The notes beneath the pieces are model-generated. The model was not told where the DNA came from. It searched no databases and saw nothing but the letters and a program-made list of their open reading frames with translations. A stretch of 58,577 bases of DNA from Nitrospirota bacterium (lineage in GTDB: Bacteria; Nitrospirota; Thermodesulfovibrionia; UBA6902; DSMQ01): the NCBI GenBank assembly GCA_016212185.1, contig JACRGX010000044.1, forward strand, positions 1 to 58,577, read 5' to 3'. Of the stretch, positions 4,795-54,559 are shown piece by piece (the first letter of the stretch is position 1; each line of letters starts with the position of its first letter). A program made the position numbers and the translations under genes.

Positions 4795-4841
4795 CCTCAA
4801 AGGTCAAGTAAATTCCATTGGAATTTACTTGACCTTTGAGG
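4795..4841. promoter_or_regulatory. Perfect 23-bp inverted repeat with a 1-base centre
   Basis: Left arm 4795-4817 (cctcaaaggtcaagtaaa ...), centre t at 4818, right arm 4819-4841, with no mismatch. As RNA it would form a very stable hairpin, ending about 6 bases before the ribosome site of the lipoprotein gene at 4864. It is not followed by a T-run, so it is not an ordinary terminator. It may be an operator, an RNA stability element or a mobile-element scar. Confidence 0.75.
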
Positions 4842-4863
4842 ACAGATAAGGAGAGTGGGAATT

Positions 4864-19679: not shown

Positions 19680-19780
19680 CCCTGTGGCAAAACCACAGGG
19701 AATCTAATGTAAATAATTTTTTATATTCGCTCGCTTGACCCCGTAGCAAAACCACGGGGAATACGCTCACTATCAATTTA
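19680..19780. repeat. CCTGTGGCAA composite repeat, copy A
   Basis: Two hairpins, cctgtggcaaaaccacagg and ccccgtagcaaaaccacggg, are joined by a conserved linker (aatctaatgtaa ... ttcgctcgcttga). The same order is found at 26017-26120 and, reversed, at 54372-54477. The whole unit is about 100 bp. Confidence 0.85.
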
Positions 19781-26016: not shown

Positions 26017-26120
26017 CCCTGTGGCAAGACCACAGGGAATCTAATGTAAGGAATTTCTATATCATATTCGCTCGCTTAACCCCGTGGCAAGACCACGGGG
26101 AATACGCTCGCTATCCATTT
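26017..26120. repeat. CCTGTGGCAA composite repeat, copy B
   Basis: Hairpin cctgtggcaagaccacagg, linker aatctaatgtaaggaatt ... attcgctcgcttaa, and second hairpin ccccgtggcaagaccacggg. It closely matches copies A (19680-19780) and C (54372-54477). It ends 14 bases before the flavoprotein gene at 26134. Confidence 0.88.
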
Positions 26121-34347: not shown

Positions 34348-36207
34348 CTATTTCCCACATTTTTTTATCTCTTCAACCAACTCTTCAAGCAAAAACTGCC
34401 TTCCGTCATATCTGTTAATTTTATTTTTAAATTCATATCCTGTCTCCGCCCTCATAAGGCGGGCAAACTGCCCTGTTGCATTGTTTTCAATGCAAATAGT
34501 AAGTTTTGCATTGTTCAGAAGGCTTAAGTAATCAAATTTTTCTGCCCCTATTTTGTCATTCCTGCGCAGGCAGGAATCTATACCTCCTGGATTCCCGTTT
34601 TCGCGGGAATGACAAGAGACCGATAATGGAAAGGGATATATTTCGCTGAAATGAAGCATGGCTATTTTTTTAATAGAAAATCCCCCCTCACCCCCCTTTG
34701 TCAAAGGGGGGACGGGAGGATTTTCTAAAAAAGCATCCACCACTTCTTTCATAACCCCGTATGTTGAACCCCATCCTGCAATCAATATATCAGGTTCATC
34801 ATCGCCGTAAAAAACCGGCGGCTCCATTTCCTGCCTGATTAGCGCGAATTTATTAAATAGCCTTTTCTGCACCATCTTTATCCTTGTCTCGGCGTCCTCA
34901 ATAATATGCCCTTTTTCATCGTGCTCATCGCTGTCTGTCACAACAACGTGCGCCGAATCTCCGGGAAGGCCTAAAGGCGATACGCCTGTTTCTGTAAAGG
35001 CATAGCGTTTGTATTCAGAAAGATTTTTAAACGAATCGTCCCTCAGCTTGTAATCCATAAATTTAATCCTGTTTAAATCAAAACCGTCAAACGTCCATTG
35101 GGAGTCGGCAAGATACTGGTCAAATAGAATGAATGCAGGTATCTGGTATTTCTCCGCGATATCAAACGCCTTATTCGTAAGGTAAAAGGCCTGTTCGGGC
35201 GTGCCGGGCGCAAAGATTACACGGGGGAATTCCCCGTGCGCAGTGTAAAGTGCAAACTGCAGGTCAGCCTGCTCTGTCCTTGTCGGAAGACCTGTGGCAG
35301 GTCCGGGACGCTGTCCTAATGCAATAACAACAGGCGTCTCTGTCATGCCGGCCAGGGAAAGCCCTTCAACCATCAATGCAAATCCTCCGCCTGAGGTCCC
35401 TGTCATGGCCCTTACTCCTGCAAACGAAGCGCCGAGCGCCATATTAATAGCCGCAATCTCATCCTCTGCCTGTTCAACAACGATTCCGTATTCCTTTTCC
35501 TTTCCTGCAAGATAATTCATAATGCCGGTTGAAGGCGTCATGGGATAGGCCGAGTAGAATTTACATCCGGATGCAACTGCACCGAAACCGATTGCTTCAA
35601 TACCAGAAATAAGCATCTTTGATTTTGATAACGGCGCGGCTGAGAAATTGCATTTAAGACATTGTTTTACGGCATAATCATGCCCTGCCATGACAGCGTT
35701 TATATTTGACTTAATTATATCTTCGCCCTTCTTTTTAAAGGTATCCCTTATAATCTCAAATAAAATATCCGGCTCCATCCCCAGCATGCCAAGCACAGCG
35801 CCGATTGCAACAGTATTAGCCATCAGCTTATTTCCGCCGTGCTCTACTGCTAATTTTGTAAAGGGAATATCTAAAATCCCCCCACGCCCCCCTTTGTCAA
35901 AGGGGGGTGAGGGGGGATTTGTAGAAGCATCATAAATAATCTGTCCGTTTTCTGAGAGTTCTCTTTCATGCAGAACGAGGCTTTCTTTATCAAATGCAAC
36001 CAGAATATCAATCTTCTTCCTTGAAGCCGCCACGGGCTTATCAGAGAATCTTATCTGAAAAAAATTATGTCCGCCCCTGACACGGGACTCATAATCCTGA
36101 TGCGTAAAGACATGCCGGCATGCTCTTGAAAATACCTTTGCAAGCGTATCGCCTATGGTCTGGATGCCCTGCCCCGCCTCACCGCATATTTTTATTGAAT
36201 AATCCAT
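34348..36207 (-). CDS. 2-oxoacid:ferredoxin oxidoreductase, fused gamma-alpha subunit
   Basis: 619 aa. Gamma domain about 1-185 (GEAGQGIQTIGDTLAK, then ESRVRGGHNFFQIRFS), alpha domain from about 200 (SGIEAIGFGAVASGCKFYSAYPMTPSTG, QAEDEIAAINMALGASFAGVRAMTGTSGGG, GLPTRTEQADLQ), with a C-terminal transketolase-like domain. Three repeat-derived peptides interrupt it: PPSPPFDKGGRGG (DNA 35874-35920), PPVPPLTKGGEGG (34677-34724) and SCHSRENGNPGG with CLRRNDK (34554-34614). All are in frame and lie between conserved blocks, so the enzyme is probably still active. A GGDEF remnant overlaps its start codon by 1 base. Confidence 0.93.
   Translation of the reverse strand: MDYSIKICGEAGQGIQTIGDTLAKVFSRACRHVFTHQDYESRVRGGHNFFQIRFSDKPVAASRKKIDILVAFDKESLVLHERELSENGQIIYDASTNPPSPPFDKGGRGGILDIPFTKLAVEHGGNKLMANTVAIGAVLGMLGMEPDILFEIIRDTFKKKGEDIIKSNINAVMAGHDYAVKQCLKCNFSAAPLSKSKMLISGIEAIGFGAVASGCKFYSAYPMTPSTGIMNYLAGKEKEYGIVVEQAEDEIAAINMALGASFAGVRAMTGTSGGGFALMVEGLSLAGMTETPVVIALGQRPGPATGLPTRTEQADLQFALYTAHGEFPRVIFAPGTPEQAFYLTNKAFDIAEKYQIPAFILFDQYLADSQWTFDGFDLNRIKFMDYKLRDDSFKNLSEYKRYAFTETGVSPLGLPGDSAHVVVTDSDEHDEKGHIIEDAETRIKMVQKRLFNKFALIRQEMEPPVFYGDDEPDILIAGWGSTYGVMKEVVDAFLENPPVPPLTKGGEGGFSIKKIAMLHFSEIYPFPLSVSCHSRENGNPGGIDSCLRRNDKIGAEKFDYLSLLNNAKLTICIENNATGQFARLMRAETGYEFKNKINRYDGRQFLLEELVEEIKKCGK
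34554..34614. repeat. GTCATTCC-family repeat inside a coding region
   Basis: Begins tgtcattcctgcgcaggc and ends tttcgcgggaatgaca, the same architecture as the intergenic copies 18888-18953 and 40712-40783. On the minus strand it encodes CHSRENGNPGG and SCLRRNDK in the open frame of the 2-oxoacid oxidoreductase alpha subunit. Confidence 0.9.
34677..34724. repeat. CCCCCCTTTG palindromic repeat inside a coding region
   Basis: Imperfect palindrome: aaaatcccccctcacccccc at the left, tttgtcaaa at the centre, ggggggacgggaggatttt at the right. On the minus strand it encodes PPVPPLTKGGEGG. Sister copies are at 35874-35920 and 49857-49902. Confidence 0.9.
35874..35920. repeat. CCCCCCTTTG palindromic repeat inside a coding region
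   Basis: Outer arms aaatcccccc and ggggggattt with inner arms cccccctttg and caaagggggg around tt/ca. On the minus strand it encodes PPSPPFDKGGRGG within the gamma-alpha linker part of the 2-oxoacid oxidoreductase. It is the second copy in the same gene. Confidence 0.9.
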
Positions 36208-49671: not shown

Positions 49672-51714
49672 TCACATGAGATTCACAGGGTCCACGTCTA
49701 CGTCAGTTTTCATATCCTTAATATCCTCTACAGCATCCAAAATCTCAAGCGCCTTTTGCCTTAAAGATTTTGAAGCGCTTCCCTTAAGAATTAAATGCCA
49801 CCTCCAGAGGTTTCTGATTTTTTCAACAGGCGCAGGGGCAGGCCCAAGTATTTCTATCCCCCCTGCTCCCCCCTTTGCCAAAGGGGGGGCCGGGGGGATT
49901 TTTCTTATCCTTCCTGCAACATTCTTCATTGTTTTTGCCGCGCCCTCTTTATTTCTGAAACTGAAAACAATCCTGAGCAATCTGCCAAACGGCGGATAGA
50001 ACAGCTCCTTTCTTAACCCTATTTCTTTTTCGTAGAATCCCTGATAATCATGGTTTCTTACGTAGTCAAAAATATAGTGGTGCGGTTCATATGTCTGGAT
50101 GTATACCTTACCGGCAGCTTCGCCCCTGCCAGCCCTTCCTGCAAGCTGAGTGAAAAGCTGAAACGCCCTTTCTGACGATCTGAAGTCAGGCAGGTTCAAT
50201 GCGATGTCTGCAAACACAACAGCAGACAGCGTTACTCCGGGAAAGTCATGCCCCTTGGCAACCATCTGAGTGCCCAGAAGCACATCAAGCTTTTTATTTT
50301 CCATGTCTTTCACAATCCTGTAATGCGCGAGCTTTTTCCTTGTCGTATCATGGTCCATTCTTTTTAATGAGATTTCCGGGATAAGGCTGTTTAACTCTTC
50401 CTCAACCCTCTGCGTACCGATGCCAATGTGTTTTGTTTTAGTGCCTTTGCATTCAGGGCAAACGGCGCGGGGAATTAAAAACGAACCGCAATAGTGGCAT
50501 TTCAGGGTCTTTGTGTCTTTGTGATATGTGAGAGTGATACTGCACGCAGGGCATTTATAAGTATGTCCGCAGTCCGTGCACATGAGAAACGGCGAATATC
50601 CCCTCCTGTTAAGCATTATGAGGGACTGATGACCGCGGGACGCATTATCTTTCATGGCGCATAATAATTTATCCGAAAAAATCCACGTCATTTTATCCGC
50701 TTTTGTCATGTCTATGATTTCCACAACCGGCATGGGCTTTTCTTCCACGCGGGATTTAAGCTCCAGATATTTAAACTTACCCTTCTTTGCATTATAAAAA
50801 GATTCCAAGGAAGGCGTGGCTGAACCTAAGATTATCTTTAGGCCCTCAAGTTTGGCGCGCGCAAGCGCCACGTCCCTCGCATTGTATTTAAACCCTTCAA
50901 ATTGTTTATACGAGGTTTCCTGCTCTTCATCAACTACAATAAGCCCTAAGTTTTGAAAAGGCGCAAAAACAGCGCTCCTTACGCCGATGGCAATCCTGAC
51001 TTCGTTGTTTTTTATCTTCCGCCATTCTGCTAATTTTTCTCCGGGCGTAATCCCGCTGTGAAAAAATGCAACCTCTTTATCAAAGCGGCTCCTGAACCTG
51101 TCTATGAACTGCGCCGTAAGGGCGATTTCAGGCACAAGCACAATGGCTTGCTTATCCGCGGGAAGCGCCTCAACCGCCCTGATATAGATTTCAGTTTTCC
51201 CGCTGCCTGTAACGCCGTGCAGGAGAAACGCCCCTGACTGCACGCCGTTAATCTCAGTCAGCGCCCTTTTCTGTTCAGGGGTCAGGGTGAAGGTTTTTTC
51301 CGTCACTATATTTTCATCATAGGTAATCCTGACTTTGCCGCTTTTCCTGCTGTCAAGAATGCCCTGCGGCACTGCATTTTTAAACGCCAGCCCCGCTGTT
51401 GAAAGGTAATACTGCCCGGCCCACTGAATCAGTTTCAGTAAATTTTCAGGGATAAGCGGTTCGTCGTCCAGAACATCCTCAATAGTTTTGAGGGGTATGT
51501 CTTTTTTGTCATTGCGGGGAGTTCCGATAATCGGAACTCCCCGCAATGACACCGAAGCGTTTTCTCCAATCCCAACAACTATGCCGGCTTTCTTTGATTT
51601 CTTAAACGGCGCAAGCACACGAACACCGGCTTTGATTTTCTGCTTAAGTTCTTCAGGAACTAAATATGTAAACGCCTCCGCGTTTATGGGGAATAAAATA
51701 TTAACCTGCATCAT
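49672..51714 (-). CDS. priA: Primosomal protein N' (PriA helicase)
   Basis: 680 aa. The DNA-binding domain is N-terminal (MQVNILFPINAEAFTYLVPEEL). Helicase motifs: Walker A LHGVTGSGKTEIYIRA, DEEQETSYKQ, GSATPSLES and TQMVAKGHDFPGVTL; the QLAGRAGRGEAAGKVYIQT block follows. The zinc-binding insert has CTDCGHTYKCPAC and CHYCGSF...CPECKG. It restarts stalled replication forks. Two dispersed repeats lie inside it in frame: VSLRGVPIIGTPRND (DNA 51507-51551), near the N-terminus, and PPAPPLAKGGAGG (49857-49902), near the C-terminus. Both are outside the helicase motifs. Confidence 0.96.
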   Translation of the reverse strand: MMQVNILFPINAEAFTYLVPEELKQKIKAGVRVLAPFKKSKKAGIVVGIGENASVSLRGVPIIGTPRNDKKDIPLKTIEDVLDDEPLIPENLLKLIQWAGQYYLSTAGLAFKNAVPQGILDSRKSGKVRITYDENIVTEKTFTLTPEQKRALTEINGVQSGAFLLHGVTGSGKTEIYIRAVEALPADKQAIVLVPEIALTAQFIDRFRSRFDKEVAFFHSGITPGEKLAEWRKIKNNEVRIAIGVRSAVFAPFQNLGLIVVDEEQETSYKQFEGFKYNARDVALARAKLEGLKIILGSATPSLESFYNAKKGKFKYLELKSRVEEKPMPVVEIIDMTKADKMTWIFSDKLLCAMKDNASRGHQSLIMLNRRGYSPFLMCTDCGHTYKCPACSITLTYHKDTKTLKCHYCGSFLIPRAVCPECKGTKTKHIGIGTQRVEEELNSLIPEISLKRMDHDTTRKKLAHYRIVKDMENKKLDVLLGTQMVAKGHDFPGVTLSAVVFADIALNLPDFRSSERAFQLFTQLAGRAGRGEAAGKVYIQTYEPHHYIFDYVRNHDYQGFYEKEIGLRKELFYPPFGRLLRIVFSFRNKEGAAKTMKNVAGRIRKIPPAPPLAKGGAGGIEILGPAPAPVEKIRNLWRWHLILKGSASKSLRQKALEILDAVEDIKDMKTDVDVDPVNLM
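49857..49902. repeat. CCCCCCTTTG palindromic repeat inside priA
   Basis: atccccctgctcccccc at the left, tttgccaaag at the centre, ggggggccggggggatt at the right. On the minus strand it encodes PPAPPLAKGGAGG. Sister copies interrupt the 2-oxoacid oxidoreductase gene at 34677-34724 and 35874-35920. Confidence 0.9.
51507..51551. repeat. Perfect 45-bp palindrome inside priA
   Basis: The 21-base arm from 51507 (tgtcattgcggggagttc ...) and its exact reverse complement ending at 51551 enclose taa. The ends tgtcatt and aatgaca match the GTCATTCC family. At 45 bp it adds 15 codons without changing frame, encoding SLRGVPIIGTPRND. Confidence 0.9.
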
Positions 51715-54266: not shown

Positions 54267-54559
54267 AAGTCTTTACCTTTTGAAAATTATAACAGGTTGC
54301 TGAAAAAGTTTTTTGCTGTGCCCTGCAAGCAGGGCCTGCAGAAAAAATGATATAATACTTCATACGTTGTTAAATGGATAGCGCGCGTATTCCCCGTGGT
54401 CTTGCCACTGGGTCAAGCGAGCGCATATGATAAAGAAATTCCTTACATTAGATTCTCTGTGGTCTTGCCGCAGGGAATATCAATTTGACAAGTATAGTTT
54501 TTTTGAATAAACTTTAAGAAATGCCAAGCAATTTAATTGTAATACAGAAAGGAAGATAA
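54267..54559. repeat. Spacer with CCTGTGGCAA composite repeat, copy C (reversed)
   Basis: The repeat occupies 54372-54477, in the opposite orientation to copies A and B: ccccgtggtcttgccactggg, ttattagcg-type linker (gggtcaagcgagcgcatatg ...), then ctgtggtcttgccgcaggg. At about 54325-54345 a gccctgcaagcagggc hairpin could end transcription. No gene. Confidence 0.8.

Follow-up and report, generated by a model that had tools for sequence, protein, structure and literature searches.

Palindromic inserts lying in frame in protein genes are best known from Rickettsia; elsewhere they have been recorded as scattered intragenic REPs. The Rickettsia palindromic elements (RPEs; Ogata, Claverie and colleagues) are short palindromic repeats found in frame in conserved genes, apparently compatibly with gene function, and they are described as losing their repeat identity with time (PMC6649704). 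The CGTC- and GTAG-tagged REPs (Di Nocera 2013, PMC3733652) are mostly intergenic, with intragenic copies in replication and repair genes and in tRNA synthetase genes, including REPs at about the same recB site in two Xanthomonas species; the CGTC type apparently has no dedicated transposase. REPINs and other RAYT-mobilised REPs are also dispersed palindromic repeats, and nematomorph mitochondrial genes contain perfect inverted repeats in coding sequence, for which template switching has been proposed as the means of upkeep (PMC6649704).

The locus described here is of a kind already known from Rickettsia RPEs and intragenic REPs; new are the bacterial group, one repeat family (F3) and the turnover, throughout the order, of repeats from unrelated families in shared loops. 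It resembles the RPEs in being palindromic, in frame in a conserved gene whose function is apparently kept, and missing from orthologues. It differs from them in its bacterial group, in the several unrelated families that use one loop, in that F3 sits mainly in genes, and in that the copy at the first site is perfect where RPEs decay. With the tagged REPs of PMC3733652 it shares a TGTC variant of the CGTC tag, an AT-led stem and possibly the head-to-head orientation, while F3, unlike those REPs, is mainly intragenic. The main text of that paper mentions neither PriA nor Nitrospira, and the sections consulted describe no case of unrelated families swapping at a single loop. The nematomorph palindromes (PMC6649704), although likewise perfect and coding, are much longer, mitochondrial and not of the dispersed REP type.

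The window, meaning the whole stretch of DNA that was analysed, comprises 58,577 nt of a Nitrospirota bacterium (GCA_016212185.1, contig JACRGX010000044.1); its relevant features are collected in Table 1. An earlier note had reported a palindrome at 51507-51551 without mismatch, and both sequence (TGTCATTGCGGGGAGTTCCGATAATCGGAACTCCCCGCAATGACA) and position are confirmed in the window. The arms had been given as 21 bases around taa; strictly they are 22 bp around one base, because the taa holds one further t-a pair. The ends read TGTCATTGC...GCAATGACA, with TGTC-ATTGC at both. Arms of this length are far above chance expectation, the longest in first-order Markov simulations of the window being 8-10 bp. 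Palindromes and repeats of the same genome were counted in a sample of about 870 kb, taken as stretches, in which this palindrome ranks second in length among perfect palindromes and first among those within ORFs.

A perfect palindrome that is longer still (47 bp, 23-bp arms, CCTCAAAGGTCAAGTAAATTCC...) lies at 4795-4841 of the window, intergenic and just ahead of an ORF at 4855; it is outside the TGTC family and could be an operator or a terminator. Another intergenic perfect palindrome, with 21-bp arms (AAAAGGGGGGCAAGCGCCGAT..., L062:15411-15454), looks like a bidirectional terminator.

Table 1. Coordinates of priA and of repeat elements in the window
Feature	Position	Strand	Description
Perfect 45-bp palindrome (site 1)	51507..51551	.	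22-bp arms and 1 central base; TGTC tag at both ends
priA, replication-restart helicase PriA, 680 aa	49672..51714	(-)	Pfam PriA_3primeBD, DEAD, Zn_ribbon_PriA, Helicase_C, PriA_C; TIGR00595
Second palindromic insert in priA (site 2)	about 49854..49907	.	F3 family, CCCCCCTTTGCCAAAGGGGGG core; loop empty in many relatives
F1-type (TGTCATTCC) REP dimer in 2-oxoacid:ferredoxin oxidoreductase	34555..34613	.	In frame, CHSRENGNPGGIDSCLRRND
F3 element in the same oxidoreductase	34669..34733	.	In frame, ENPPVPPLTKGGEGGF
Second F3 element in the same oxidoreductase	35873..35926	.	NPPSPPFDKGGRGGI

The palindrome is in frame in priA; read on the minus strand, it encodes residues V55-D69, VSLRGVPIIGTPRND. 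The same note had placed it between the DNA-binding domain and the helicase core, which has to be corrected: Pfam PriA_3primeBD spans residues 12-116 and the insert falls inside it. A gap opens at the insert when the protein is aligned to solved PriA chains, and it is on this sequence alignment that the placement in a loop is based; an AlphaFold2 model from a two-row alignment was set aside (mean pLDDT 37). The insert at site 2 translates as IPPAPPLAKGGAGGI within PriA_C, in a loop that has 15 residues when empty.

PriA was detected in 42 of the 47 genomes of the order. The site-1 loop has 31 residues here, against 14-19 (median 17) in empty relatives and 28-52 where an insert is present; the loops of a few relatives, at 24-27 residues, fall in between and were placed in neither class. 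The only other genome of the genus in the comparison, which is 87% complete, gave no priA match. Arrival by insertion, as the note proposed, is supported, the segment being absent from relatives or swapped there for other repeats. Its further claim, that a perfect palindrome implies recent arrival or active upkeep, is compatible with these data and unproven: since the elements that three relatives have at the same loop share its ends but are longer and imperfect, an old insertion later shortened and perfected would explain the copy about as well as a fresh one.

Those three elements (loci L012, L013 and L019; genomes G003, G009 and G034) measure 96, 86 and 90 nt, with ends TGTCATTGCG...CGCAAYGACA, and an A-run follows directly on the TGTC-ended element in all of them and in this genome. 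Counting the present one, three of the four begin in one and the same phase of the codon and have a length that is a multiple of three. The TGTC-ended family (F2) is dispersed in the genomes of these relatives, where exact TGTCATTGCGAG counts are 33 (G003), 159 (G009) and 124 (G034) against a non-carrier median of 1 (p = 0.002, with the caveat given below); reversed-pattern controls are near zero. It is scarce in the window's own genome, with seven exact matches to the 12-mer and three paired elements with ends of the site-1 type in the 870-kb sample. Beyond the common ends, no exact or near-exact copy of the site-1 interior was found in that genome, so it is by its ends and position, and not over its full sequence, that this copy is placed in the family. 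The palindrome has the CGTC/TGTC tag and the stem starting AT that mark CGTC-tagged REPs; instead of their 8-9 bp stem, 4-5 nt loop and CCA tail it has one 22-bp stem around one base and no tail. Its tags point outward, as in a dimer, but without inner tails, and the 86-96-nt elements of the relatives look more dimer-like.

Other relatives fill the same loop with other repeats. Sequence of GTAG-type REPs occurs there in G008, G012, G019 and G028, and F3-like peptides in G023 and G010. Tandem arrays of 7-bp units occupy it in G031 and G029, which of all the genomes have the most of them, and related arrays do so in G040, G015 and G036. The occupant usually belongs to a repeat family abundant in that genome (F2, p = 0.002; tandem arrays, p = 0.001; GTAG, p = 0.047; F3 at site 2, p = 0.007), p-values that are guides only, as genomes were taken as independent and carriers were assigned by eye post hoc. 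A quick PriA tree, which cannot separate gain from loss and has some long deep branches, requires at least 12 changes of occupant, and the sisters G034 and G019 (100% support) hold F2 and GTAG repeats, respectively.

The best reading is that selfish RPE/REP-like repeats are tolerated as loop peptides. In full, and with a probability of roughly 0.84, the palindrome is a short dispersed CGTC/TGTC-tagged repeat of REP type that would have entered a tolerant loop of the PriA 3' DNA-binding domain in frame, to be translated, presumably without harm, as about 15 additional residues. Because extra length is tolerated there, the loop may act as a landing site that has gained, lost and swapped inserts over the order's history, drawing on the abundant repeat families of each genome; the second loop, in PriA_C, and loops of other enzymes such as MetRS would behave likewise, and copies breaking the frame would be removed by selection. 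The perfect arms most likely reflect a young insertion or template-switch correction of a quasi-palindrome. As inserting enzyme, an IS200/RAYT-like single-strand transposase is a candidate; the genome has six Y1 transposase genes, none with these repeats on both flanks, and, unlike in RAYT-mobilised REP/REPIN systems, no REP-flanked RAYT was found in it. PriA and other conserved enzymes of the group would thus take up repeat peptides time and again, and they apparently keep working with them.

A variant of this explanation, differing in timing, has a single old TGTC insertion in an ancestor of the PriA clade, inherited by the present genome (G000), G003, G009 and G034, which then lost length and mismatches here and gave way to other repeats elsewhere. 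Identical ends, near-identical position and the A-run in all four speak for it, as does the PriA tree in joining G000 and G003 as sisters (support 96) with G009 nearby; the same tree demands at least three changes of TGTC-element state, G034 has in G019 a sister with a GTAG repeat, and the interiors of the inserts are too divergent for confident alignment. We rate its chances at a little under even. A local origin by template switching, in which an inverted duplication arose in a length-tolerant loop with no mobile repeat involved, would account for the perfect arms and for the lack of a second copy of the interior in this genome, which moreover holds further long perfect palindromes outside the TGTC family. 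We consider it unlikely, given that the TGTCATTGC/GCAATGACA ends agree with those of a dispersed family present in the same loop of three relatives.

Fold-back chimeras of assembly or amplification typically yield perfect palindromes, and an artefact of this sort has to be weighed for any such sequence. Here the insert is in frame, its element ends are exact, equivalent inserts stand at the same place in independent assemblies, and priA has a second insert of another family, all of which make an artefact extremely improbable. Nor do we give much credit to the idea, slightly less far-fetched, that the peptides have a function and are under selection, for instance in tuning PriA and with it the mutation rate. 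The recurrence of inserts in the same two PriA loops would fit it, as would the numerous REPs that PMC3733652 notes within genes for replication and repair; that paper offers tuning of mutation rate by REP-tagged repair genes as a speculation. But the peptides in one loop are unrelated from relative to relative, the loop is empty in many of them, and MetRS, a FabG-like protein, an aminotransferase and an oxidoreductase, outside replication and repair, are also struck.

The explanation by tolerated repeats extends to these proteins through F3 (AAATCCCCCCnnnCCCCCCTTTnnnAAAGGGGGGnnnGGGGGGATTT), the family of the site-2 insert. Exact F3 cores number 19 genome-wide, clearly making that insert a member of a dispersed family, as RPEs are. 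The 870-kb sample holds 24 F3 copies, of which 18-19 are inside ORFs, with almost every copy read as a PPxPP-type peptide containing KGG; G009 has eight of nine inside ORFs. With ORFs called by length alone in all these counts, only 3/41 and 2/16 F1 REPs are intragenic (F3 versus F1, pooled Fisher p about 1e-11), a difference that may be due in part to the openness of F3, which leaves about four of six frames open per copy here and 3.4 in G009, against fewer than three for F1. Hosts of F3 with Pfam support include an oxidoreductase, an Eco57I-type methylase, a glycosyltransferase, a class-III aminotransferase, MetRS and a FabG-like reductase; alignments of the last two to PDB chains are interrupted at the insert. 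Across the order, two MetRS loops are short in certain genomes and in others contain peptides from F3 or another repeat. No relevant paper came up when the literature was searched for the F3 core. It is possible, and we put it forward tentatively as doubtful rather than probable, that F3 is selfish DNA that has adapted to residence in protein-coding genes (most of its frames are open, it is mostly intragenic, and it is read almost only as PPxPP(F/L)xKGGxGG) and that shares tolerant loops of conserved enzymes with other repeats, loop evolution in the order proceeding largely by repeat capture.

PriA and MetRS thus have loops with unrelated repeats across one bacterial order. Because such repeats share loops within the order, comparison of orthologues can test whether repeats are targeted to the loops or merely survive there, and whether the peptides matter. 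As a caution for annotation, peptides of the 'KGG' or 'RND' sort in such proteomes stem from repeats and are no conserved motifs.

Three similar copies of a paired repeat (CCCTGTGGCAAAACCACAGGG with CCCCGTGGCAAGACCACGGGG) lie in the window, at 19680-19778, 26017-26119 and 54371-54475; in the genome sample this family is almost never within ORFs. The oxidoreductase subunit at 34348-36207 has three in-frame repeat inserts of two families. Several repeat-derived inserts (PVIARSQ...GNRKD, PPHPPLSKGG, SLPTGQAGPFDKGG) also occur in a TPR protein (L094:452-2440), and the similar proteins at L049:1257-3263 and L056:2912-4801 have different inserts at different places.
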